Source: Candidatus Aerophobota bacterium
Lineage (GTDB): Bacteria; Aerophobota; Aerophobia; Aerophobales; JAGGXI01
Assembly (NCBI GenBank): GCA_021163155.1
Contig: JAGGXI010000024.1
Location: 1 to 20,316 of the forward strand
Reading direction: 5' to 3'
Length of the DNA stretch: 20,316 nucleotides
Shown here: one piece after another, positions 2,104 through 18,958 of the stretch
How the letters are laid out: every line of letters starts with the position of its first letter
Position numbering within the stretch: the first letter of the stretch is position 1
Translations under genes and position numbers: made by a program
The notes under the pieces: generated by a model
Told to the model about the DNA's origin: nothing
What the model saw: the letters and a program-made list of their open reading frames with translations, nothing else
Database searches by the model: none

Positions 2104-2176
2104 AACCATCTTTAGCGCAGTAAGTTTAGTTAAGAATTACATAAAAGATTATACAAAGGTTGTGAACAATGAATAA
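2093..2176 (+). CDS. Possible 27-residue bridging ORF
   Basis: ATG at 2093 lies in the end of the MNT gene behind GGAGGAG, with good spacing, and the TAA at 2174-2176 overlaps the helicase start at 2169. The peptide is basic and helical (SLVKNYIKDYTK). It may be a stub of a lost HEPN-like gene or a short coupling peptide that passes ribosomes from the MNT gene to the helicase gene. Too short to assign. Confidence 0.35.
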   Translation: MRDKTIFSAVSLVKNYIKDYTKVVNNE

Positions 2177-5165
2177 AATAGGTTCAACTTCTAAAATAGT
2201 AGTTGATAATCGAGGAGAAAACACCTTGCTTGCCTTGCTAAGGAGTCTGCTCTCTCAGGCTATTTCCTTAGATATTGCCACTGGTTATTTTGAAATTGGC
2301 TCGCTCATTTCTTTACAAGGCTCCTGGCAACATCTTAAGAATTTACGAATTATTCTTGGCGATGAAACTTCAAAAAGAACAAGACGAGAATTGGTCGAAA
2401 GCATAAAGAGGCAATGTAATGAGAGTATAGAAGTAGAGAAGGAGCGAGATGATACACTTAAGGGGCTTGATGCAATTAGAGATGCCCTGGATAACAAAAA
2501 GATTCGAATAAAGATTTATACCCGGGCGAAATTTCATCCAAAGACATATCTAGTGAGAAATGAAGCATTAAAATCCCCTGATTATGCAATAGTCGGCTCA
2601 AGTAATTTCACTCGACCTGGTCTTACGAAAAACCTGGAGCTCAATATTTTTACACAAGAAAAGAATCAGGTAGAAGCTGTGAAAATGTGGTTTTCAGAAA
2701 TATGGTCTGAATCTGAGGAGTTGATAAATCCTGAAATATTGAGAGTGATTATTCCTCATTTGAAATTGTATCTTCCCTTTGAAGTATATGCAAAAGCTCT
2801 TTATGAGTATTTCTTGGGCCGGGAGAAAACACCATTAGAATGGGAGGAGAAAGAGTCGGTAATTTATCCGATTCTTGATAAATACCAGAAAGACGGTTAT
2901 CATCAAGCCTTAAAAATTGCCGAGACTTGGGGAGGTGCATTAATATGCGATAGCGTTGGCTTGGGTAAGACCTTTATTGGGCTTATGCTTTTAGAATATT
3001 ATCTTCATCTCGGCAAAAGAGTTTTACTGATAGTACCAAAATCAAGTCGAAAAAGCGTTTGGGAAAGATTCATTAAAAAATATTTAAGGCCTCATAGAAG
3101 GTATGTTTATCAACAAACATTTCGTATATATAATCACACTGATTTTGGGCGAGAGGAGACCAGAGCTATCCCAAACGAAGCATTCGAAGAAATGAAGAAG
3201 GATACCGATGTTATTATTGTTGATGAAGCGCATCATTTCCGTAATTCAGGAATAGCACGCAGTAAAAAACTCTACGAGCTTTGCAAAGAGAAAATTGTTT
3301 ATTTTATCACTGCTACTCCAATTAATAATTCTCTTTACGATCTTTTCCATCTGATTAATTACTTTGCAAGAAATCGTTGGAGTTATTTTGAATCTATTGG
3401 CATTCGAGACCTAAGGAGTCATTTCAAAGAAGCAGAGGAAAAAATGGAAAGAGAAATTGAATTCGGCGATATTCAAGCAAAGGCAGTGTCGACCGATTTC
3501 CTGAGAACTGATAAGCTTCTTAAAGCCATCCTCATCCAGCGAAGTCGTGCTTTTGTTAAATCTTTAGAAACAGAGAATGATAAAGTTCCATTTTTCCCCG
3601 AGCGTCAGCCGCCGAAAATAGTTGAATATTTCTTATCAAAAGTTTATCGAGGTCTTTATGGTGATATAAAATCAGCTTTTGGCAGGAAGGAACCTCTTCT
3701 TACACTTGCAATTTATAATCCAGAGGCCTACCGAAAGAGGAAAAAGGATGAAAGCATTGAACGTAGAGAAAAGCAAGTTATCGGGCTTATCAGAACCTTA
3801 TTGTTGAAAAGGCTGGAGAGCTCATATAAGGCATTTGAGGCGAGTTTAGAGGGACTTTTGTTCAAAATGTTTCAGTTCGCAAAGGTTCATCGTCCGAAAC
3901 TTATAAAAATGTGGGAGGTGGAATATATAAACCAGTGGAAAGTAGTTAAAAAGCATCGCTTGGAGCGATTCGACCTTGAAGAAGAATCAGAGGAGGAAGA
4001 TGAAGTTCCAAATATTCCTGAAAAACTTGAGGAAAGTGAATACAAAATTGATAAACTTATTTCATTAGTTCTCGATGATATGACTCAAATTGTAACAATA
4101 CTTTCCAAAGTATATGAGCATTTATCACCTAAAACCGATGATAAACTGAGAAAACTTGCTACTCATTTACAAAATGAAGATATCTTGAAAAACCAAAAAG
4201 TTGTTATCTTCACCGAATTCCGTGATACTGCACGATACTTATTCAAGCAGTTAAAAGATAGATATAAATTTACAAATGTTGAGGAATTGGATAGCACACG
4301 CAACATTGACAGAGAGAAAATCATAAAACGCTTTGCTCCCTATTACAATTGTTCTGATGAGGAACTGCAGGATTATGTTGGCCTAGATAGGAAATATGAA
4401 CCTGTTCGCATATTGATAAGCACTGATGTTCTCTCTGAAAGTTTAAATCTACAGGATGCAAATATCGTTATAAATTATGATCTACACTGGAATCCGGTTC
4501 GCTTAATGCAACGGATTGGAAGGGTTGATAGAAGAATTGATTTAACGAAACCTATCCATCACGATAAAGTTTACTTTTATAATTTCTTGCCTCCAAATGA
4601 GCTCGAAGACCTACTTCACCTAATGAAAAAGATTACAGGCAAAGTTACTCGCATAAATAAAACCCTCGGTCTTGAGGCGCCACTTATTAGACCTGATGAC
4701 CCGGTTGAAACTTTGAAACTTTTTAATGAACGCTATGAAGGACGGCATAGCGTTGAAGAAAAATTGAGATTAGAATTGAACAAAATTGCAAGAGAGCATC
4801 CCGACCTTTATAAAAATCTTCCGTATCTTCCATTAAGGCTTTTCAGTGGCAAACGAGCTGTTTCTGAATCTTGCAAAGGCCTTTTTTGCTGTTACAAATT
4901 TCCACCGATAGAGGAAGGTAAGCCCCAGGAGGTGAGGTGGTATTTTCGTGGATCTGCTGCAGAAAAAATATTAGAAGAAGTTGAAAGCATCTATGAGAAG
5001 ATTCAATGTTTGCCAGATACTCCAAGAGCAACGATAGTTTCACCAGAGGAGCTGGCTGAACAGAGAAAAAATATAGAAAGGTATATTAAGAATACCTATT
5101 TGAGGGCTCTGCAAGCCCCGCAGAATTATAAGCCAACTCTTTTATGTTGGATGGAGGTATGCTGA
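2169..5165 (+). CDS. PLD-domain SNF2-type helicase/ATPase of a restriction or defence system
   Basis: The 998-residue protein has two parts. The N-terminal part (about 1-200) is a phospholipase-D-like domain with HxK (His123, Lys125) and GSSN (143-146), the pattern of PLD-family nucleases. Residues 240-830 form a superfamily 2 helicase core: Walker A DSVGLGKT (261-268), DEAH box (352-355), TATP (381-384), and a second RecA lobe with VVIFTEF, DVLSESLNLQ and QRIGRVDRR (781-789). Such proteins use ATP to move on DNA; the PLD part could cleave or bind it. Only one HxK/GSxN half-site is visible, so a nuclease would need to dimerise. The stop overlaps the methyltransferase start (TGATG). DrmD of DISARM and archaeal PLD-helicases are the closest relatives I can suggest. 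Family is sure; exact system is not. Confidence 0.9.
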   Translation: MNKIGSTSKIVVDNRGENTLLALLRSLLSQAISLDIATGYFEIGSLISLQGSWQHLKNLRIILGDETSKRTRRELVESIKRQCNESIEVEKERDDTLKGLDAIRDALDNKKIRIKIYTRAKFHPKTYLVRNEALKSPDYAIVGSSNFTRPGLTKNLELNIFTQEKNQVEAVKMWFSEIWSESEELINPEILRVIIPHLKLYLPFEVYAKALYEYFLGREKTPLEWEEKESVIYPILDKYQKDGYHQALKIAETWGGALICDSVGLGKTFIGLMLLEYYLHLGKRVLLIVPKSSRKSVWERFIKKYLRPHRRYVYQQTFRIYNHTDFGREETRAIPNEAFEEMKKDTDVIIVDEAHHFRNSGIARSKKLYELCKEKIVYFITATPINNSLYDLFHLINYFARNRWSYFESIGIRDLRSHFKEAEEKMEREIEFGDIQAKAVSTDFLRTDKLLKAILIQRSRAFVKSLETENDKVPFFPERQPPKIVEYFLSKVYRGLYGDIKSAFGRKEPLLTLAIYNPEAYRKRKKDESIERREKQVIGLIRTLLLKRLESSYKAFEASLEGLLFKMFQFAKVHRPKLIKMWEVEYINQWKVVKKHRLERFDLEEESEEEDEVPNIPEKLEESEYKIDKLISLVLDDMTQIVTILSKVYEHLSPKTDDKLRKLATHLQNEDILKNQKVVIFTEFRDTARYLFKQLKDRYKFTNVEELDSTRNIDREKIIKRFAPYYNCSDEELQDYVGLDRKYEPVRILISTDVLSESLNLQDANIVINYDLHWNPVRLMQRIGRVDRRIDLTKPIHHDKVYFYNFLPPNELEDLLHLMKKITGKVTRINKTLGLEAPLIRPDDPVETLKLFNERYEGRHSVEEKLRLELNKIAREHPDLYKNLPYLPLRLFSGKRAVSESCKGLFCCYKFPPIEEGKPQEVRWYFRGSAAEKILEEVESIYEKIQCLPDTPRATIVSPEELAEQRKNIERYIKNTYLRALQAPQNYKPTLLCWMEVC
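5153..5157 (+). promoter_or_regulatory. Ribosome binding site fixing the methyltransferase start
   Basis: GGAGG ends 7 bases before ATG 5165. The in-frame ATG at 5144 lies upstream of this site and has no comparable one, and ATG 5159 is too close. Start 5165 also gives a TGATG stop-start overlap with the helicase, typical of translational coupling. Confidence 0.75.
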
Positions 5166-8100
5166 TGGTAACTATTAGGCCAGAGGATTTGAATTTTAGG
5201 GATTTTGGAGGTTTTAGGGATTTTTTGCAAGAGAAGCTAAATTGGCCCATTAGAGAAGTTTCTAAGGAATCGTTGACCTATGAATATCTGCCTGAGGAAT
5301 TGAAAATCGATGGGAAGCAGATAAATAGATTTACTGGAGATACAATTTACCAGTTGATTCCTGTAGTGAGAAATCAGCCCTGGGGTATCTTCCTTCTTGA
5401 ATTAAACATTCCTAAAGTATATATTACTTTTCTGAGGCTAATTCTTCACGGCCTTGTCCCTTACCGACGAAAATTATCATCTACTATGCCTACCTGGGAA
5501 ATTGAAAATTTGCTCTTTATCTGCACTTATAATTATAAAGATTTTACCTTTGCTCACTTCAAAGGTAAAAAATATCAGAAGGCAAAACTTTCAACTTTTA
5601 ACTGGACTTCTGGTGAGACAAGATTTCGGACTTTGTGTGAATTTAACCTACCTCCTCTCTTTTATAATGAAGAATTCAAGGATAATCCTCAAAAATGGCT
5701 TAAAGAATGGTCAAAGGCATTTGATAAGGAAAAACTCACTAAAGAGTTCTTTGAAGCGTATAAGTTTGCTCTGAAATTCATAAAAGACATACTATCGGCT
5801 CAAAACAAAGCTTCGCCACAAGAGGTTCACTCTTTTGCTCAGCAACTATTATCGCGAATAATGTTTCTTTATTTTGTGGAAAAGAAGGGATGGCTAAAAT
5901 GGAAGGATTATGTTCAGGATAAAAAATACATTTCGAACCTATGGGTAAAGTACAAAAAGTGTAAAAAACACGAAGATACTTTTTATTCCTTATGGCTTTC
6001 TTCTCTTTTCTTTCAAGCATTCAACAAAAAACATAGATATTTCAACCTTGGCCTTCCTGATGAGATAAAAGAGTCGTTAGACCTTATGCCATATTTGAAT
6101 GGAGGACTTTTTACGGAGAATGAGCTTGATAAAATAGGTTTTAATGTTCCCGATAAAGTCTTTGAATTATTATTTGAAATAGACCCTTATGATAAAAGAA
6201 GGGGATTCCTCGAGCGATACAATTTTACCATTCGTGAAGATACCCCGCTCGATGTAGAAGTCGCTGTTGATCCTGAGATGCTTGGTAAAGTTTATGAGTC
6301 CCTTATCTCTGAAGAGGAGAGGGGCAAAGCAGGTATCTTTTATACTCCACGAACAGAGATTGACTATATGTGTCGGCTTTCCTTGGTTGAGTATCTATTT
6401 GAAGAGACCAAAATATCCAAAGAAGAGCTCATTTCTTTAATATTTGAACCTCAAACGATTTTAAAATACGAAGGTGAAGCAAATTTGAAGCAAATAAGAA
6501 GAGCTCTTGATAAAGTTAGAGTCGTGGACCCTGCTGTGGGTTCTGCATCATTTCTGGTAGGAATGATGAATGTACTTGTGGATATTCAAAATAACCTCTC
6601 TTTGAAGATTGAGGGAAGAGAGGAGAATATATTCGCTTTAAAGAACAAAATTATCTCAGAAAATCTTTACGGAGTTGATGTAAAGGATTGGGCAGTAATG
6701 ATAGGAGAGCTCAGACTATGGCTTTCTTTAGTAATAGATACAGATGAGAAGGAGCTGGACAAAATGGGGCGAAATATTTATCAACACCCACTTCTTCCAA
6801 ATCTTACTTTTAAGATAACCCAAGGCGATAGTCTTATTGAGGAAATTGCTGGGATTCCTTTATCTTTACGAGGAGAATTTAAGTACATCCCAAGATTAAT
6901 TAAACAAAAATTGACCGAAATAATTGATAAAAAGGCGGAATACTTCAGGAATGCAAGGCTTGACAGGAAAAAGGAAATAGAAAATTTAGAGAATGAACTT
7001 TTCAAAAGTATTGTTAAAAATGAAATTAAAAAAATTGACAGAGAGATTAAAAAAATAGAGGTTCAGGTATATGGAGAGCCTGAGCAATTGACATTTGTTA
7101 AGCCAACCGTAAAGCAAGAAAGCCTTTTTAAAGAAGAAATGCGAAGGCTAAAACAAAAAATTAAGGAGTTATTTATAAAGAAAGAAAAGCTCCAGAAAGC
7201 TCTTGAAGGTCTTGGGAAGAAAGAAACAAAGGATTATTTTCTCTGGGAAATTGATTTCACTGAGATATTCGCTGAGAAAGACGGCTTTGACATTGTCATT
7301 GGTAATCCACCGTATGTGAGGCAAGAGATGATTACCTTTCCACTTGAGAGAAAAGAAGATTATAAAGACTTAGAGGAATGGAGAGCGAGGAAGAAATTAT
7401 ATAAAGAAAAACTTGCCAACTCAGTAAGAATACACTGGGGTAATCTTATAAAGATAAATAAAAAGAGCGACCTTTATGTCTATTTTTATTATCAGGGGTT
7501 AGCGTTACTTCGGCCAAACGGTATTTTTTGTTTCATTAATTCAAACTCCTGGCTTGATGTAGGGTATGGAGCATCTTTACAGGAATTCCTGCTGAAAAAT
7601 ATGGAACCACTTTACATCGTGGATAATCAAGCAAAGCGTTCATTTAAACAATCAGATATCAATACAATAATAGTTGCTATAAGGAGACCGCAGGAAGTAA
7701 GAGATAATATAGTAAAATTTACCAACTACAAAAAGCCTTTTGAGGAAGTATTAACTCCTGATAATCTTGTTGAAATAGAGAAGTCCTCTAAGATTAAAAC
7801 CACAGAGGATTTTCGTGTCTTCCCTATAACTAAAAAGGAGCTTCTTAAAGACGGCATTGAGTTACCTAAAGAAAAAACATTACTTAAAAGACCCGAAGAC
7901 CTTTCCTATATTGGAGGCAAATGGGGAGGAAAATATCTAAGGGCACCAGATATATTTTTCAAGATATTGGAAAAAGGGAAAGGAAAATTGATGAGGCTGG
8001 GTGAGATCGCAGAAACTAAAACAGGAATAATTACCGGAAATAATGCAAAATTTTATAAAGCACGAGATAAAATATCGTTTATAAAAGGTTTTTTGCCGTG

Positions 8101-8728
8101 TTTTAAAACTCCTCGCGACTATTATAAGATTATTTTGACGGAAAAAGATGCTAAACATTTCATAAAATCTACTGATGATGTTCCATATGAAATACGCCGC
8201 GCAAGATTACTATGGGTTGATATAAGAGGAGCAAAACATTTATGCCATCTTAATCTAGATTTATTACCGTTCGAGCATAATTTTATAGGGCTCGATGTGA
8301 ATAATGAAAATGACATTTTAAAGACATGCCTGCTGCTTAACTCCACTTTATCTTGGTTCTTTGTAGAAATTTATGGAAGAGCAGCCTTAGGAGGTGGAGC
8401 AATAAGACTTTTGGGACAAGATTTGAAATCTCTTCCTCTTCTATTGCCCCATTTGCTAGGATTTGATCCTTCCGATAAGAAAGTCAAATCATTTTGCCTT
8501 AGAAAGATCGGCAATTTCTATGAGGAGCTCGATCTCCCTAAACCCAGCAGGGATTATTCTAATATAGATCCCAATAATGTAAGTCTGGATAAGGTTATGC
8601 CTGACCGAAGAGGCTTGGATAAAATTGTCTTCGAGGCCCTCGGTTTGACCGAGGAAGAGCAACTTGAGGTCTATCGAGCGGTCGTAAAGCTTGTGAAAAA
8701 CAGGCTTGTCAAAGCAAGGAGTGTGTAA
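5165..8728 (+). CDS. Adenine-N6 DNA methyltransferase, Eco57I/PglX-like
   Basis: This protein (1187 residues from ATG 5165) very probably methylates adenine in host DNA to mark self. The central region has GIFYTP (390-395), motif I DPAVGSASF (455-463) and motif IV NPPY (714-717) within FDIVIGNPPYVR. Motif I has Ser-Ala where DPACGSG is usual. An N-terminal helical region resembles that of large Eco57I-class enzymes (RIMFLYFVEKKGWL, YLNGGLF). A lysine/glutamate-rich helical insert separates motifs I and IV, and the C-terminal third should contain the target-recognition domain. I see no convincing PD-(D/E)xK nuclease in the N-terminus, so cleavage would fall to another subunit. The stop is 2 bases before the next ATG. 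Two decayed copies of its C-terminal tail lie downstream, at 14316-14436 and 17812-17899. Confidence 0.9.
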   Translation: MVTIRPEDLNFRDFGGFRDFLQEKLNWPIREVSKESLTYEYLPEELKIDGKQINRFTGDTIYQLIPVVRNQPWGIFLLELNIPKVYITFLRLILHGLVPYRRKLSSTMPTWEIENLLFICTYNYKDFTFAHFKGKKYQKAKLSTFNWTSGETRFRTLCEFNLPPLFYNEEFKDNPQKWLKEWSKAFDKEKLTKEFFEAYKFALKFIKDILSAQNKASPQEVHSFAQQLLSRIMFLYFVEKKGWLKWKDYVQDKKYISNLWVKYKKCKKHEDTFYSLWLSSLFFQAFNKKHRYFNLGLPDEIKESLDLMPYLNGGLFTENELDKIGFNVPDKVFELLFEIDPYDKRRGFLERYNFTIREDTPLDVEVAVDPEMLGKVYESLISEEERGKAGIFYTPRTEIDYMCRLSLVEYLFEETKISKEELISLIFEPQTILKYEGEANLKQIRRALDKVRVVDPAVGSASFLVGMMNVLVDIQNNLSLKIEGREENIFALKNKIISENLYGVDVKDWAVMIGELRLWLSLVIDTDEKELDKMGRNIYQHPLLPNLTFKITQGDSLIEEIAGIPLSLRGEFKYIPRLIKQKLTEIIDKKAEYFRNARLDRKKEIENLENELFKSIVKNEIKKIDREIKKIEVQVYGEPEQLTFVKPTVKQESLFKEEMRRLKQKIKELFIKKEKLQKALEGLGKKETKDYFLWEIDFTEIFAEKDGFDIVIGNPPYVRQEMITFPLERKEDYKDLEEWRARKKLYKEKLANSVRIHWGNLIKINKKSDLYVYFYYQGLALLRPNGIFCFINSNSWLDVGYGASLQEFLLKNMEPLYIVDNQAKRSFKQSDINTIIVAIRRPQEVRDNIVKFTNYKKPFEEVLTPDNLVEIEKSSKIKTTEDFRVFPITKKELLKDGIELPKEKTLLKRPEDLSYIGGKWGGKYLRAPDIFFKILEKGKGKLMRLGEIAETKTGIITGNNAKFYKARDKISFIKGFLPCFKTPRDYYKIILTEKDAKHFIKSTDDVPYEIRRARLLWVDIRGAKHLCHLNLDLLPFEHNFIGLDVNNENDILKTCLLLNSTLSWFFVEIYGRAALGGGAIRLLGQDLKSLPLLLPHLLGFDPSDKKVKSFCLRKIGNFYEELDLPKPSRDYSNIDPNNVSLDKVMPDRRGLDKIVFEALGLTEEEQLEVYRAVVKLVKNRLVKARSV

Positions 8729-8730
8729 AA

Positions 8731-10581
8731 ATGGGATTGCATATAGAAGAAATTAATCTAAAAGATGGAGATTCTGTTGAAATTCCTAACAACAAAATCA
8801 GTTTCGTAATGGTTCATCCATTACTTGAGGGGAAACTTGAGCAGACACAAGAAGGATTCAGGTTCAGGGCTCATCAGAGGACCCTTCAGGTTCATCTTAT
8901 TCGAAATACATTTTCTTTAGTTAAAAATCGTTTGAGTGCAGATATTAATCATACTCATTTTCTCATTTTTCCTGAACTCTCTGTACCAGAAGAGGCGTTA
9001 GAGGTGATCGAGGAAGAACTGAAAGACGAAGAACTAAAGAATATAATAGTAATGGGTGGGTTAGAATACATAAATGGCAAAAAATTTTGTAATCTTTTGA
9101 AAGATTCTAATATCCCAAATAAGTGCAAGAATCTTCCTGCCACTATAAACGCATCCATCGTGAATACCGCTTTTGTTTTTATTAAAACAAACCAGGGGGA
9201 TGTGAAGAGGTATTATCAACCAAAAATGTCGAGTAGCCTACCCGAGCAGCTTCTGCAGAATCAGTACAGAGGCTCATATTTACTTCTTTTCAAAACCAAT
9301 TCTTTGAACTTTACTCAAATAATTTGTTTCGATGCAATTGCGATAAGACCGGGAACGTTGAATCCTATAACGGATGAAATGCTTTCACAATTAAAAAAAA
9401 TAGGCACTTCCAATATTTTAAGGATAGACTTAATGTTTGTACTTCAACATAATTGTAATCCTAATAACTCCGAGTTCCAGACCTTTGCGAAAAGATTATT
9501 AGAGAAAGGAGAAAGAAATTTAATTATCGATGCATTAATATTTGCAAATAGCGGCGCTGAAAAATACGGTGATTCTCATCAATATGGTAAAAGCAGATTT
9601 CATTTTAAAAGAGGTAACTATCAGGATTTTAATAAGAGTATGTCCTCTGTTCCAGACACCTTTTCTATTATTGAGAAAGATAGAATAAAATATGCACAAT
9701 TTAGAGAAGACGGTCCTTGCTGCCATACCTTTATCTATTATCCTCCTTGGACTGGAGGAATTCCCTCCGGTACTTACCGGTTACCTTTTGACAGAGCCTT
9801 TGTATATAAAATAACTCAAAACGGCTCCATTGAAGATGGAAAGACTATAAAAGGACTCCAAAAAAGGGTCTTTGATTTTTTACCGGAAGATCTTCCCTTT
9901 AGTGATCCAAAAAATCGTTGGACTGCGAATAAATGCCAACATGATAAGAGGCTAAACAGAGAACTTAAAGAAAAATATTTAAGGGTTCGAGATAAATTGC
10001 TTATGAGCGGGATAGAAAAAACAAGGATGGGTGAAATTACCTACCTATTGTTTCTTGGATACGATGAAACCCCCAGGGGGAGAATTAACAATCCTGATTT
10101 TTGGGAGGATAGTTACGAAGGTGAAGGACTAAAAGATTTAGCTTCGGGACTGACAATATTTGAAACTTTGGGCATGACAGTTTTGCAAAAAGAATCTCTT
10201 TCAAAAGTGCATACAGCTTTATTTACTTGTAATGACTTAGAATTTTATATTACTTTGCTTGATGATGCTAATGAAAGAACTCCGGGGCAGTTGAAGAAAA
10301 AATATAAAGACTTTCTTAGAGAAAATACATGGCAAAACATGAAATGGACTAAAAATACTCTTCTTTTACTCTGTACCGGAAACCGGAGCGAGAGTGACGA
10401 TCTTGTCAAGGAAGAAAATAAATATTTCTCAATTCGCTCTAACGATCAAGAAAGATTTACTTCACCTCGAATTGGTTCTTTGTATGTTTACAGTTTGGAT
10501 AAACTAAGAGGCGATTTAGAGAGAAATTGTAATGAGATAAAAATAAAATGGAGGAGGAAACTTGAACCGCTCAGAAGTTAA
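8731..10581 (+). CDS. Nitrilase-fold (carbon-nitrogen hydrolase-like) protein of the defence-like operon
   Basis: I recognise a nitrilase-superfamily pattern in residues about 20-360: LIFPELS with Glu82, a YYQPKM segment with Lys165, a second acidic residue Glu172, and IICFD with Cys199. These fit the Glu-Lys-Glu-Cys catalytic set and its usual order, and ANSGAEKYGDS later resembles the family's post-Cys strand. Such enzymes hydrolyse amides or nitriles of small molecules. The protein is twice the usual length; residues 360-616 are a C-terminal region I cannot assign. AAGGAG (8716-8721) precedes the ATG, and the 3' end overlaps the ATPase gene by 20 bases, so it belongs to the operon. A nitrilase domain also occurs in the DRT type 1 (UG1) reverse-transcriptase defence protein, which gives a precedent in phage defence. 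Substrate is unknown. Confidence 0.7.
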   Translation: MGLHIEEINLKDGDSVEIPNNKISFVMVHPLLEGKLEQTQEGFRFRAHQRTLQVHLIRNTFSLVKNRLSADINHTHFLIFPELSVPEEALEVIEEELKDEELKNIIVMGGLEYINGKKFCNLLKDSNIPNKCKNLPATINASIVNTAFVFIKTNQGDVKRYYQPKMSSSLPEQLLQNQYRGSYLLLFKTNSLNFTQIICFDAIAIRPGTLNPITDEMLSQLKKIGTSNILRIDLMFVLQHNCNPNNSEFQTFAKRLLEKGERNLIIDALIFANSGAEKYGDSHQYGKSRFHFKRGNYQDFNKSMSSVPDTFSIIEKDRIKYAQFREDGPCCHTFIYYPPWTGGIPSGTYRLPFDRAFVYKITQNGSIEDGKTIKGLQKRVFDFLPEDLPFSDPKNRWTANKCQHDKRLNRELKEKYLRVRDKLLMSGIEKTRMGEITYLLFLGYDETPRGRINNPDFWEDSYEGEGLKDLASGLTIFETLGMTVLQKESLSKVHTALFTCNDLEFYITLLDDANERTPGQLKKKYKDFLRENTWQNMKWTKNTLLLLCTGNRSESDDLVKEENKYFSIRSNDQERFTSPRIGSLYVYSLDKLRGDLERNCNEIKIKWRRKLEPLRS

Positions 10582-13500
10582 AGATTTTATTCGTAATAAG
10601 TTCAAAAGCCAAGGCTTTAAGATTATAGAGGTTTTCGATCATAGTGCATTCGATATGGTCTTCCGACATTCAGATCTTGGATATAACGTCTTTTTCAAAT
10701 TTTATAAGTCATCAAAAGAGTTAGAACAAAACTGGTTCGAAGTTCAAGAAAAGGTTAAAGAAATAATAGAAAAGCGGAAAATACTCTCTTATAACTCTTA
10801 TCTTATTTTTGCTTTACCTCAGGAATATCTACCTTCTGAGACAGAAATTCAAAGAATTATTTTTGATGAGTATGTTTGCAGAAAACTCATTTTTCCTATA
10901 GATTCCTCGTTATCCAAGTTAAAAAAGGATATTCTTAAATTTCCATTTTATCCTTTAGATATTCCAGAGGCTACTGAGCACAAAATTCCTAAGGGTGTTG
11001 TAGACGCTTTATCAATAACAAAATTTGATCAACAATTAGTAAATGATATAGCAGGACGAATTTCTCCTCCTCAAATTATTAGGAAGATTCTAAGTAATGA
11101 ATACGGAGAGTATGTTACAGGAAAAATTGTTCAATTACCTGAGGAGTCAAGAGTCTTAGAACAACACGATAGAAAATTAAAAGAGATAACCATAGAAAAT
11201 TTTAGAGGGATAGGAAGTAAAGTTCTTTTGAATCTAGATGCAGATATAGCAGTCATTTATGGCCCCAATGGAACAGGGAAGACATCCATATTTGATGCTA
11301 TTGAATGGACTATAACAGGTCAGGTTGAGCGACTGCAGAAACCAATAAAAGATATAGATCTTAAAATTAGAGATATAATAGTAAACTTATTCCACAAAGA
11401 AAATCTGGCAAAGATTAAGATAGAACTTTATGTTGATGGAGAAACTAAAAATATTGAAAGATCTTTGGATCCTTTAGAAAAAGGTAAAAGCAAAGTAACA
11501 ATAGATAATTCAAATGTAACAAATAAAACCGTAATTGCAGTAGTAACTGGCAATGAATTATTAAAATCGCTAATAAAAAGGGTTGAAAGATTTAGAAAAG
11601 GTTTTTTGGCTTCACATATTCTCAAACAGGAAACTCTTACTCAATTCATATCCCACACTAATCCCAAAATGAGATATGACTCTTTCTCCTATATTGTTGG
11701 GACCCAGGATTTCGTAAGGTTTAGGGATAAAGTAGGGGATATTATTAATAGGATGGAGAAAGAGATTAAACAATTGCAGGTTAAAATAAGCGATGTTTCG
11801 GAGCAGATAGGTGAGAAACGGCGAAGATTTACTGAAAAAGAGAAGGAATATAATCAGCTATCAAAAGCAATTGTCTCTCTTTCTGAAGCAAATTTGCTCA
11901 ACGAAATAAGAGAGTTGCTCAAGATAACAGGCTTACCGATCTTGGTAGATCTCATAAATAGAATAAGACATCCGACAAAAGGATTAGCAGAGAGCATAGT
12001 TGAAATTTCATCTAAATATGTTGATTCTATGCGTAAGGAACTCAATAATTTCATTAGCATAATTGAACAGGGCGAGATAACTATACAAAAAGAGCAAGAA
12101 ATCAAAGGAATTAAGAGTTTAGTGGATGTTTTAACTAAGAAAAAAGAAAAAATTGATAAACAAAAACAGGCTATCGGATCGGAAATTACCAAGAAAGAGC
12201 AAGGATTACTTAATATAGAAAAAGAGAGAAAAAAATTACAGATTTTTATAGATGATATTGATTGGCTAATAAGGATGAAACCTTTTTATGAAGGTAGTAA
12301 TGAAAGATTAGAAGAAGTAAGTAAGGAATTTAAAAAGACTTACGCTAGAGAAAGAGAAATTACTGGAAAGATTAATAAAGTTGTGGAAAAGGAAGAGATA
12401 AGTGTAGAAAAACTTCAAAATAACAAAAATCAACTTAATAAAATAGAAAAATTAATTAAAGTTATCGAGTCTATTTTGGGTTCTGTTGACGAATGGAAAG
12501 ATTATATCAATCGACGGAAAATTATGATTAGAAAAATTGATGATTTATATACCCAAATGCAACAGACGCAAGAAACTAAGGAGAAAATGTCTAAAGAATT
12601 AGATAATCTAAATGATAAAATAAAAAAGGTAGAGGCCCAGATAAATTTGCAAAAGAAAAAATATAATCAAAGAATGCAGCTTATCGGCAGGCTGAGAGAA
12701 TATATCGATTCTTCCAAGTGTCCATTTTGTGGACACAAATGGGATGATATTCAAATTTTGTTAGCAAACGTTGATAAACAAATTAATGAATTACCTGAAT
12801 CATTAAGGATTCTGATAAGGAAAGAAAAAGAATTCAAAGCAAGTAAAAACGAAATTGAACTTAAGATTGCCCAACAAACATCCAAAATTAATGAATTAAA
12901 AAACCAGCGAGAATTACTTCTCTTGAAGAAAAGAGAAATTGAATCTAACATAGAATCTTGGGAGGAACAAGTACAATTTTTACCCTTTAGTTACACTATT
13001 ATCAAAATAGAAGATAAATCAATGCCCGAAAGGAAATCACTGGAGCAAATTAGAGACAAACTTAAAGAGGAGATAAGAATTGTCTATAAGACTAAAACAA
13101 AACTAGAAGAGAATCTTAGTAATGCAAAGAAGAAATACAACAGTTTAAATGAGGAATTAGCTGGATTAAAGAAATCCTCTAAGAAACTTAGAGAAAATTT
13201 TGACAATCTGAATCAAACGATTGAAAATATGAGAAAAGAAATGACGAATAGAGACTTAGTTGAATTGGTAGATGAGAAAATATCGGTTTTAAAGAAAAAC
13301 AAGGAAGAATATTCGACAAAACTACTAATCCAGACTGATAGAGAAAAAGCCTTGGAAAATGAACTAAAAAACCTGCGCAATGGGCTTGTCCAAATCAACC
13401 TGAAAGAAGAAGACATTTTCAAAAAAATTTCTATGTCAAAAAGCAAATTACAGGAGCTTTGTGCATTGCAGAGTGATTTTATAAAGGGAGTAAGACCTTA

Positions 13501-14344
13501 TGTCGCAGAAGCAGAAGGAAAATCTCTGGCGGAGATTCTAAAGAGAATACAGGAATTAAAAACGGAAAGTAAGAGAAGGTATCAATTATATTCATCTCTT
13601 AAGAGAAAAGCGGATGATTTAAAGAAAACAATTACTTTAGGTGTCTTAAAGAAGAATCTTCAGAGCTTGCGTATGGAAATATCCACGATAGGAAACAGGA
13701 ATAAAAAATCGAAAGGAGAATTGGAAAATATGAGAAGATGGCGAAAAAGATTAGAGGACCTAAAAAGAGAAACTTCTCAAAAAAGAAGATTACAGGAACA
13801 AAGGCATTTTGATTGTTTTAGGCCCACCATAAATCTAATTTATCACAGATTAAATGCGCACCCTTTGTTAGGAGATATAGAAATATCATTTAAGCGAGAA
13901 GAATTAAAAATCATCTCTAAAACATCATTTATTTCCCCCCAAAATACTGGAAAAGTAGTCGAAATTCCTCCTTCGCATGTTTTTAGCGAAGCTCAACTAA
14001 ACACTCTTGCTATAAGTATATTCTTGGCTTCTGCCATTGAACAAGGATGGTCTCGGTTTAGGGCCATTCTTATAGACGATCCAGTACAAAATATGGATGA
14101 CCTGAACTCTTATGCATTTTTAGATCTTATCTTAGGATTAGCAGGTCTTGGGCATCAGTTCATTATCTCCACATGCAATCGAGATTTTTATAAATTAATG
14201 TTGATGAAATTTTCTTGTCTTAATAAGACTAAAAAAAGGTTTATTGCCTACAGACTCCAGGGTATATATAGGGAAGGGCCCAAGATAATGGAAGATACAC
14301 CAAGACCTTCTATGATAGAAAAAAAGCGAAGTTTCTTAATATAA
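10562..14344 (+). CDS. Rad50/SMC-like ATPase with zinc hook and extra N-terminal domain
   Basis: The 1260-residue protein starts at TTG 10562 behind AGGAGG (10552-10557), overlapping the preceding gene by 20 bases. Residues 1-190 form a separate domain of uncertain kind: AFDMVFR then VFFKFYK is faintly like a restriction-nuclease fold without its acidic residue, and DEYVCRKLIFP recalls middle components of ABC-three-component systems. Then comes an SMC-type head with ITIENFRGIG and Walker A GPNGTGKT (234-241), long coiled coils broken by CPFC (720-723), the zinc-hook pattern of Rad50, and the second half-head: a signature-like FSEAQLNTLA (1141-1150), Walker B AILIDDP (Asp1172, Asp1173) and a D-loop. 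Rad50-like proteins tether and clamp DNA ends. No Mre11/SbcD-type nuclease is nearby. The last few codons overlap a decayed methyltransferase tail, so the C-terminus may be altered. Confidence 0.85.
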   Translation: MNRSEVKDFIRNKFKSQGFKIIEVFDHSAFDMVFRHSDLGYNVFFKFYKSSKELEQNWFEVQEKVKEIIEKRKILSYNSYLIFALPQEYLPSETEIQRIIFDEYVCRKLIFPIDSSLSKLKKDILKFPFYPLDIPEATEHKIPKGVVDALSITKFDQQLVNDIAGRISPPQIIRKILSNEYGEYVTGKIVQLPEESRVLEQHDRKLKEITIENFRGIGSKVLLNLDADIAVIYGPNGTGKTSIFDAIEWTITGQVERLQKPIKDIDLKIRDIIVNLFHKENLAKIKIELYVDGETKNIERSLDPLEKGKSKVTIDNSNVTNKTVIAVVTGNELLKSLIKRVERFRKGFLASHILKQETLTQFISHTNPKMRYDSFSYIVGTQDFVRFRDKVGDIINRMEKEIKQLQVKISDVSEQIGEKRRRFTEKEKEYNQLSKAIVSLSEANLLNEIRELLKITGLPILVDLINRIRHPTKGLAESIVEISSKYVDSMRKELNNFISIIEQGEITIQKEQEIKGIKSLVDVLTKKKEKIDKQKQAIGSEITKKEQGLLNIEKERKKLQIFIDDIDWLIRMKPFYEGSNERLEEVSKEFKKTYAREREITGKINKVVEKEEISVEKLQNNKNQLNKIEKLIKVIESILGSVDEWKDYINRRKIMIRKIDDLYTQMQQTQETKEKMSKELDNLNDKIKKVEAQINLQKKKYNQRMQLIGRLREYIDSSKCPFCGHKWDDIQILLANVDKQINELPESLRILIRKEKEFKASKNEIELKIAQQTSKINELKNQRELLLLKKREIESNIESWEEQVQFLPFSYTIIKIEDKSMPERKSLEQIRDKLKEEIRIVYKTKTKLEENLSNAKKKYNSLNEELAGLKKSSKKLRENFDNLNQTIENMRKEMTNRDLVELVDEKISVLKKNKEEYSTKLLIQTDREKALENELKNLRNGLVQINLKEEDIFKKISMSKSKLQELCALQSDFIKGVRPYVAEAEGKSLAEILKRIQELKTESKRRYQLYSSLKRKADDLKKTITLGVLKKNLQSLRMEISTIGNRNKKSKGELENMRRWRKRLEDLKRETSQKRRLQEQRHFDCFRPTINLIYHRLNAHPLLGDIEISFKREELKIISKTSFISPQNTGKVVEIPPSHVFSEAQLNTLAISIFLASAIEQGWSRFRAILIDDPVQNMDDLNSYAFLDLILGLAGLGHQFIISTCNRDFYKLMLMKFSCLNKTKKRFIAYRLQGIYREGPKIMEDTPRPSMIEKKRSFLI

Positions 14345-14444: not shown

Positions 14445-15296
14445 ATGGTAGTTGAAGATTTACTTAGCAGAGATTTACAAGAAAAACTTGATATTCAAGG
14501 AATTGAGAAATTCCTTGATTCCTTAGGGGAAGAAAGATTGAAGCAGAAAAAAACCCGAATGGAGAACCTTTTAAAAATCGCTAATCCTGATGAGGCACTT
14601 TATAGAGAACTTATGCTCGCTCTCGGGTATAAGAATAATAAAGTTCAGTTTCTGGAATTGGCTATGATTCTGCCTTATTCAGAGATTTGTAAATTAAATA
14701 GTCAGAAGACGATTGAAAACGCTCTACTTTACAGAGCAGGTTTTTCAAAATCAAAAGAAGGCCTACCCAAAGATTTTGATTTTTCCTTAAAAATGGAAAA
14801 ATCAGTATGGCAATATAAGGGCACAAGGCCGGCGAATTATCCGAAAAAAAGAATAGAGGGTATCTCAAGATTATTATTTTATTCTTTGAAAAGTGGATTA
14901 TGTAGCCTTTTTGGAAAAAAGATTATTAAAAACTACTCAAAAGAAGTAGATAAAAAGACAGCGATGAATTTCTCTCGTGCTGTCATGCAAATTTTTACAG
15001 CAGCAAAAGCAGTAGGAAAAACGAGGGCTATGGAAATATGCTTTAACATAACTCTGCCGTTCTTTACCGTAATCTTTGAACAACGAGGGGAAAGCAAATA
15101 TGCGAGTTTTCTTTATAAAGTTTATGATTTGCATCCTTCCCTCGCCGGTAATTCTATTACAAGAACTATGGAGAGACAGCTCTTTTGTGATAAGAAGGAT
15201 AATCCAAGGAGAATTGTTCCCTCAGTAAGAAGATATATGGGGTTGATAATGTTATACTATAAAAATAAGGGGATTGAAGAAGATGAAAAATCTTGA
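14445..15296 (+). CDS. DUF2851 family protein, N-terminally short
   Basis: Family hallmarks are visible: LYRELMLALGYKNNK (52-66), ALLYRAGF (93-100), Trp122 followed by RPANYPKKRI (128-137), and a C-terminal region with an IxLPFF block and a final LIMLYYKNKG helix. To my knowledge DUF2851 proteins are usually above 400 residues with an N-terminal half that is absent here; this one has 283. The DNA just upstream is methyltransferase-tail debris, so the missing half was probably lost in the same rearrangement. A weak AGGA (14431-14434) precedes the ATG. Function of the family is unknown to me. The gene is open over its whole length, so it could still be made. Confidence 0.75.
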   Translation: MVVEDLLSRDLQEKLDIQGIEKFLDSLGEERLKQKKTRMENLLKIANPDEALYRELMLALGYKNNKVQFLELAMILPYSEICKLNSQKTIENALLYRAGFSKSKEGLPKDFDFSLKMEKSVWQYKGTRPANYPKKRIEGISRLLFYSLKSGLCSLFGKKIIKNYSKEVDKKTAMNFSRAVMQIFTAAKAVGKTRAMEICFNITLPFFTVIFEQRGESKYASFLYKVYDLHPSLAGNSITRTMERQLFCDKKDNPRRIVPSVRRYMGLIMLYYKNKGIEEDEKS

Positions 15297-17920: not shown

Positions 17921-18958
17921 ATGTTTAAGCCAAACTTTAAATACACCCATAGAATAGTCAATAATCTTGTTGAGATTACATCTGCAAGAGAGGTTATTCT
18001 CAATGCGTATATTGTACCGAAATGGGAAATTTCTTTAAGAAAAGAAGCATTGATAAGGGCAACTCATGCCTCTACAGCAATAGAGGGAAATCCACTAAGC
18101 CTTGAAGAAGTCAGCAAGCTTGCTCAAGGGAGAGAGCTTACGGCGGCAAGGAAGGCAAAGCAAGAGGTTCTTAATTATCTAAGTGTTTTGGAAAATATAG
18201 ATAACTACCAGGAAAATGGAAAAATTACAGAAAAATTTATTTTGAAACTCCACAAAGATATTACAAAAAACACGTTGGATAATTTATCCTATGAAGGGGA
18301 ATATCGTAATATTCAGGTATATGTGGGAAATAGAATCACAGGAAAGGTAATTTTTCTTCCCCCCGCTCCTAAAGAGGTGGCGGATTTAATGAAAAAATTT
18401 GTTGAATGGCTCAATTCTAAGGAGGCTCAGCTACTGCATCCTGTTATTATTGCTGGGATTTCTCATTATGAATTTGTAAGAATCCATCCCTTTGTTGACG
18501 GCAATGGTAGGACAGCCAGAGCTCTGGCAACCCTTATTCTTTATTTAAAAAAGTTTGATATAAAAAGATTTTTTGCGTTGGATGATTATTACGATAGCGA
18601 TAGAGCTTTATATTACAATGCTTTAAAATCGGTTGATCAAAAAACTCTTGATATAACGAACTGGCTTGAATACTTTACAGAGGGGGGTTTTATCTCTATA
18701 TCAAAAGTTAAGGAAAGAGTGCTACAACTTTCGCTGGAAAGACGTAAAAAGGTTATAAGGGGACAAATTGCTCTTACAGATAGACAGATGAAAATTGTTG
18801 AGCATATCTACAAGAATGGGAGGCTAACAAGTGGTGAAATTCAAAAGATGTTTAAAATTTCTCGCCAGGCGGCTTATAAAGAGATAAAGAAATTAATTGA
18901 ACTGAATTTAATTAAGCCGAAAGGCTCTGGTAAAGCTGTATACTATGTTATTAAGTAG
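17921..18958 (+). CDS. Fic family protein, class II, with C-terminal winged helix
   Basis: Fic enzymes typically transfer AMP from ATP to hydroxyl groups of target proteins. The catalytic motif HPFVDGNGRTAR (189-200) is intact with its essential His189, and the flap region lies around 135-147. An N-terminal inhibitory motif STAIEG (51-56) matches [S/T]xxxE[G/N], placing it in class II, where the glutamate blocks ATP binding within the same chain. Residues about 280-345 form a winged-helix DNA-binding domain (LTDRQMKIVEHI, SRQAAYKEIKKL), so it may also regulate transcription. AAAGGAG (17905-17911) precedes the ATG by 9 bases. It lies inside the 17475/19778 inverted-repeat pair and just after methyltransferase-tail debris. 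Beyond the stop the frame reopens as a VDAK repeat. Family assignment is firm; target unknown. Confidence 0.92.
   Translation: MFKPNFKYTHRIVNNLVEITSAREVILNAYIVPKWEISLRKEALIRATHASTAIEGNPLSLEEVSKLAQGRELTAARKAKQEVLNYLSVLENIDNYQENGKITEKFILKLHKDITKNTLDNLSYEGEYRNIQVYVGNRITGKVIFLPPAPKEVADLMKKFVEWLNSKEAQLLHPVIIAGISHYEFVRIHPFVDGNGRTARALATLILYLKKFDIKRFFALDDYYDSDRALYYNALKSVDQKTLDITNWLEYFTEGGFISISKVKERVLQLSLERRKKVIRGQIALTDRQMKIVEHIYKNGRLTSGEIQKMFKISRQAAYKEIKKLIELNLIKPKGSGKAVYYVIK

Follow-up and report, generated by a model that had tools for sequence, protein, structure and literature searches.

The effectors of Lamassu anti-phage systems are thought to work by abortive infection, and the LmuA effectors listed in a 2023 review include "C-N hydrolase" (PMC10586767). 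Fused Lamassu effectors are activated through oligomerisation (PMC12799240). A nitrilase is also the abortive-infection effector of DRT1 (UG5 reverse transcriptase-nitrilase), in which the assembly of tetramers and filaments gates the activity; an essential molecule of the amine or amide type is presumed in that study to be its substrate (PMC13275509). The paper reporting the DRT1 structure describes nitrilases as being without precedent in phage defence (PMC13275509).

Here we analysed a 20,316-nucleotide stretch of DNA (the window, in full) from a genome of the Aerophobota, of which Candidatus Aerophobetes Ae_b3a is a close relative. All features with coordinates in the window's main operon lie on the forward (+) strand. 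The original prediction considered a nitrilase inside a DNA modification operon to be unexpected. This view did not hold, because the protein is LmuA of the Lamassu/ABC-3C systems, for which C-N hydrolases have already been listed (PMC10586767). PADLOC models exist for both LmuA and LmuB, and the nitrilase as an LmuA effector is not new. We consider it probable that the locus encodes a Lamassu-family (ABC-3C) abortive-infection module, in which LmuA is a nitrilase-type C-N hydrolase effector and which serves as the backup arm of a restriction-type operon. To our knowledge, the composite operon, the fused middle component, and the link to the DRT1 nitrilase are new within the searchable literature, although the 2020 classification of ABC-3C systems may mention some of them.

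The lmuA gene and its nitrilase-like domain

The lmuA gene (8731–10581) encodes a 616-residue protein. Its ATG start codon is preceded by the Shine-Dalgarno sequence AAGGAG and is located 2 nt beyond the stop codon of the methyltransferase gene. The product matches the PADLOC LmuA model PDLC03850 (1.7e-45, residues 14–363). The four predicted catalytic residues are at the positions that had been proposed, in the contexts FPEL, QPKM, and ICFD: the putative general base Glu82 (8974–8976), Lys165 (9223–9225), the putative second catalytic glutamate Glu172 (9244–9246), and the putative nucleophile Cys199 (9325–9327). They are kept throughout a six-member alignment (24–26% identity, with one close copy at 87%) and are invariant in eleven full-domain sequences, comprising the window protein and ten relatives that are 23–28% identical to it, except for one close copy. 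Invariant positions make up 22 of the 350 in the domain, and the chance that all four named residues fall among them is about 1e-5 by simple arithmetic that ignores phylogeny. The lmuA frame evolves under purifying selection, with dN/dS relative to the 87%-identical sequence of 0.20 in the nitrilase part and 0.28 in the C-terminal part.

The nitrilase-like domain spans residues 19–327 (8785–9711). A profile of the LmuA-type family was aligned by hhalign to a profile of 21 genuine C-N hydrolases from related genomes with a probability of 74.9 and a score of 44.0 over 221 columns, whereas 60 column-shuffled controls scored no higher than 20.3 and the reversed profile scored 15.6. In this alignment, near-invariant nitrilase columns are occupied by Glu82, Asn145, Lys165, Gly181, Cys199, Asp201, Asn273, Gly286, and Ser288. 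The catalytic residue is present in 20 of the 21 hydrolases at the Glu and Lys columns and in all 21 at the Cys column. Glu172 is positioned in a gapped stretch of the profile alignment, and the K-x6-E spacing that it forms with Lys165 is common to DRT1 and some small nitrilases. The shuffled controls rule out a chance occurrence of the motif set. The putative Glu-Lys-Cys triad has the conserved context by which members of the nitrilase superfamily are recognised, and the comparisons support the assignment of this LmuA domain to the superfamily, with its full catalytic set in place.

Pfam CN_hydrolase does not match LmuA, and the nitrilase domain is therefore missed by ordinary annotation. AlphaFold models computed from only two closely related sequences had low confidence, with pLDDT values of 31 for the full protein and 46 for the domain alone, and the proposed nitrilase fold is thus based on sequence profiles. 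A Foldseek search of the PDB with this weak domain model listed no nitrilase and no significant match, and VIA-align placed formamidases and Nit2 only among its weak rows (Z 3.4–4.0). Direct searches of the PDB with the LmuA sequence and the family profile found no relative. The missing Pfam match and the unproductive fold search are what would be seen if the domain had another fold and resembled nitrilases by coincidence. Nevertheless, such a coincidence is highly improbable given the margin of the profile score over its controls, the alignment of the nitrilase signature columns, and the independent match of the PADLOC DRT nitrilase models (RT_UG5-nitrilase, 1.7e-7).

The domain appears closer in sequence to the DRT1 nitrilase than to metabolic nitrilases, which agrees with the comparison that was drawn originally. 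Against the LmuA-type profile, a DRT1 nitrilase domain from genome G077 (locus L068) scored 20.7 bits, with an E of 1.6e-4 for 20,000 sequences, whereas the 21 metabolic nitrilases reached 3.2 bits at most. In the alignment, the E, K, E, and C of this DRT1 domain match the four LmuA residues. The kinship is based on this one DRT1 sequence and the PADLOC models. LmuA aligns to the nitrilase part of the RT_UG5 model alone (positions 670–785 of 907), and neither Pfam nor PADLOC detected a reverse transcriptase in LmuA. The protein was not assigned to DRT1, which is defined by a reverse transcriptase domain.

The C-terminal region of LmuA (residues 351–616; 9781–10578) has no Pfam match, cannot be aligned to the LmuA of locus L017 or to plasmid ABC-3C proteins, and did not match any of the ABC-3C docking domains tested. 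By analogy, it may be the docking part. This large unassigned region could also perform the killing, or the restriction genes could, with the nitrilase domain as a non-catalytic oligomerisation scaffold; a non-catalytic scaffold had been one of the original suggestions. In DRT1, nitrilase domains do form the core of the tetramers and filaments (PMC13275509). However, an invariant catalytic set and invariant signature columns at 23–28% identity, together with a dN/dS of 0.20, are not expected of a scaffold, and we regard this role as improbable. Catalysis by the nitrilase-like domain is the preferred reading.

A family of 390-residue nitrilase-like proteins, which Pfam does not recognise either, was observed in the phylum of G259 and in genome G250 (L019 7246–8418, L020 8093–9265, and L018 7749–8924). 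All catalytic residues are present in these proteins. Their genes are adjacent to nudix, argG (argininosuccinate synthase), and other arginine or lysine biosynthesis genes, or to lspA. The family, an unassigned enzyme, is a probable housekeeping relative of the LmuA domain, and its neighbourhood is a possible clue to the LmuA substrate.

LmuB and its apparently fused middle component

The original prediction placed the gene in a restriction-type operon. The helicase and methyltransferase genes upstream agree with this description, but the immediate downstream partner was missed. This partner is lmuB (10562–14344), which encodes a 1260-residue SMC/Rad50-like ABC ATPase (PADLOC LmuB, 5e-110). 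It starts with a TTG codon, and its ribosome-binding site, GGAGGAGG, is within lmuA, so that the two genes overlap. LmuB contains the Walker A motif GPNGTGKT at residue 234, a zinc-hook-like CPFC at 720, and ILIDDPVQNMD at 1169; the last includes DDPVQ, a motif of ABC-3C ATPases.

The N-terminus of LmuB (residues 1–200; 10562–11161) was aligned by hhalign to four proteins of the ABC-3C middle component 1 type with a probability of 91.9, P of 6.9e-7, and a score of 48.5, compared to a shuffled maximum of 18.7. In the plasmid ABC-3C systems that match LmuB, "middle component 1" is encoded by its own gene, whereas the module in the window has no separate middle-component gene. Thus, an MC1-like middle component appears to be fused to the N-terminus of LmuB. 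The PADLOC LmuB model has the same length as LmuB from the window, which indicates that the fusion is already represented there, without comment. With the fused component, the module would be a complete ABC-3C system. As in Lamassu/ABC-3C systems, LmuB is adjacent to LmuA, and LmuA combines an N-terminal effector with a variable C-terminus; the middle component (LmuC), which some of these systems lack, is represented by the fused domain. Judged from these sequence features, lmuA very probably encodes the toxic component of an anti-phage system of the Lamassu family.

A second, independent pair of overlapping lmuA and lmuB genes was identified in genome G017 from another phylum, with no helicase or methyltransferase alongside. 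The N-termini of the two LmuA proteins are 27% identical over 310 residues (E 1e-24). In a sample of 366 genomes, the two that carry the closest LmuA were the only ones in which the LmuB profile PDLC03861 matched at E<=1e-30. LmuA was not found among 72,556 plasmids or 50,697 phage records, LmuB was not found in the same phage records, and searches of viral contigs for LmuA, LmuB, and the helicase gave no match. Few genomes were obtained in several searches directed at small phyla, and the phyletic range of this type of LmuA is therefore poorly sampled.

Further downstream, the window (14445–15296) and locus L002 of a close relative (8833–9681) both encode, behind lmuB, a protein similar to the C-terminal part of DUF2851 (1.1e-16). 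The window also contains a gene for a Fic-family protein that has a winged helix at its C-terminus (17921–18958).

The restriction-type operon and its possibly exchangeable cargo

The first gene of the operon (2169–5165) encodes a 998-residue PLD nuclease-like and SNF2 helicase protein (Pfam PLDc_2 1.2e-12, SNF2 2.6e-15, and Helicase_C 2.4e-17; PADLOC C3a139 HKD+Snf2 1.2e-63 and DrmD 1.7e-37). It overlaps by 22 nt with the second gene (5144–8728), which encodes a 1194-residue Eco57I/type IIG-like adenine DNA methyltransferase (Pfam Eco57I 3.5e-29; PADLOC REase_MTase_IIG 5.2e-57). The four genes for the helicase, methyltransferase, LmuA, and LmuB all abut or overlap, and clear ribosome-binding sites precede the three downstream ones. 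Upstream of the operon (482–1137 and 1771–2103), the window contains a toxin-antitoxin-like pair of HEPN (2.8e-23) and MNT nucleotidyltransferase genes and, in addition, a second MNT gene.

The order methyltransferase, LmuA, LmuB is kept in locus L002. Two genes are inserted there between the methyltransferase and LmuA (1598–2540). One encodes a TIR-like protein whose C-terminus is hydrophobic, and the other encodes a PIN-like protein (DUF3368; PADLOC PDC-S70). Residues of about 960–1120 of the window methyltransferase (8021–8503) are 38–52% identical to their counterpart in L002, and the flanks are mostly 72–92% identical. This pattern marks the segment as a putative swapped target-recognition domain, and the two methyltransferases consequently probably modify different DNA sites.

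The apparent single transcription unit and the gene order that persists in L002 despite the insertion would suit LmuA and LmuB being subunits of the restriction system, used for cleavage or self-protection, rather than an independent module. This arrangement is quite unlikely, since LmuAB occurs alone in G017, and plasmids from archaea, cyanobacteria, and Deinococcota carry helicase-methyltransferase pairs that lack LmuAB. For the same reasons, a functional coupling of LmuAB, which we regard as a module of its own, to the helicase and methyltransferase is suggested only by their position.

Related PLD-SNF2 and Eco57I pairs (PADLOC C3a139; DrmD-like) also occur on plasmids from Thermococcus, Nostoc, Microcystis, Deinococcus, Thermus, and halophilic archaea. 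In place of LmuAB, these pairs have other cargo, often located between the two genes, or none. The cargo is an AbiEii-type gene on the Thermococcus plasmid, and a RelA/SpoT-like gene and DUF262 on the Deinococcus plasmid. On the Microcystis plasmid NZ_CP025929.1 (L059 3865–12195), the genes for the methyltransferase and PLD-SNF2 helicase flank those for a CBASS SMODS cyclase (6e-56) and a SLATT_4 effector (2e-67). The pairs of Halorussus and Halalkalicoccus have little or nothing in between. This variation suggests that the helicase-methyltransferase pair is a restriction platform on which abortive-infection cargo can be exchanged. An LmuA-like identity was also tested, and rejected, for the 601-residue protein encoded behind the methyltransferase of Thermococcus. 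The RelA/SpoT-like synthetase domain in the Deinococcus radiophilus plasmid (L057 13748–14500, between the methyltransferase and helicase) is a weak match (6.6e-4) and possibly belongs to a small alarmone synthetase.

For BREX and Dnd, the idea that a modification system holds a suicide effector in reserve is well established (PMC12839542; PMC10853773). It is conceivable, although rather doubtful, that the four genes form one two-stage system, in which the attack of the platform on unmodified DNA would yield intermediates that trigger LmuB, and the cell would die only if restriction engages and fails.

Proposed mechanism and relation to known systems

Based on the predicted domains and the behaviour of related effectors, a mechanism of the module can be proposed. 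LmuB, with the middle component fused at its N-terminus, would keep LmuA inactive and watch DNA for ends or other odd structures that arise during phage replication. Alternatively, the trigger may be provided by the PLD-SNF2 helicase and methyltransferase acting on unmodified DNA. Upon detection, LmuA would be released or rearranged and would oligomerise. Nitrilases require homo-oligomers for activity, and we propose that the assembly switches on the nucleophile Cys199. The active LmuA would then hydrolyse an essential amide- or amine-bearing metabolite, so that the infected cell stops. Since DRT1 requires tetramers and Lamassu effectors are activated by oligomerisation, we infer that LmuA is most economically explained as a nitrilase gated by oligomerisation.

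The nitrilase superfamily also includes amide-forming and acyl-transfer enzymes. LmuA might accordingly produce a signal or toxin molecule instead of depleting a metabolite, and the authors of the DRT1 study left toxin generation open (PMC13275509). We consider this outcome unlikely, because the operon encodes neither a separate receptor nor an effector that would act downstream, and the listed classes of Lamassu effectors kill directly (PMC10586767). Depletion of a metabolite by LmuA thus remains the favoured outcome. It would constitute a second, reverse-transcriptase-free use of a DRT1-related nitrilase as a probable cell-killing effector. For the Lamassu family, the activation of effectors through oligomerisation is already known. 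A comparison of LmuA with DRT1 could reveal a common substrate, and the operon suggests that a widespread helicase-methyltransferase pair may host suicide modules that can be swapped.

The operon resembles DISARM in its SNF2 helicase and adenine methyltransferase, which are related to DrmD and DrmMI. However, unlike DISARM, it lacks DrmA, DrmB, and a gene of its own for DrmC; in the PADLOC results, DrmA came up only among the weaker matches to the helicase, and DrmB was not among the matches listed. DISARM was rejected as an assignment since its core genes DrmA and DrmB are missing. The methyltransferase is distantly PglX-like, far under the curated cut-off, and BREX was rejected in the same way, as its core proteins PglZ and BrxC were not among the matches listed for the operon proteins.

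The closest described counterpart is Lamassu/ABC-3C with a C-N hydrolase LmuA (PDLC03850 and PDLC03861; PMC10586767), which has the same N-terminal C-N hydrolase, a variable C-terminus, and an adjoining Rad50/SMC-like LmuB. In contrast to other Lamassu/ABC-3C systems, the module in the window has its middle component fused to LmuB instead of encoded by its own gene, and its operon also encodes a PLD-SNF2 helicase and a type IIG-like methyltransferase. Among the nitrilases compared, the DRT1 nitrilase is the closest relative of LmuA outside the LmuA-type family, and the two share the E/K/E/C set and the K-x6-E spacing. The system in the window differs from DRT1 in that it has no reverse transcriptase. 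Whereas DRT1 is gated by DNA adducts and filament formation, the gating of LmuA would proceed via LmuB.
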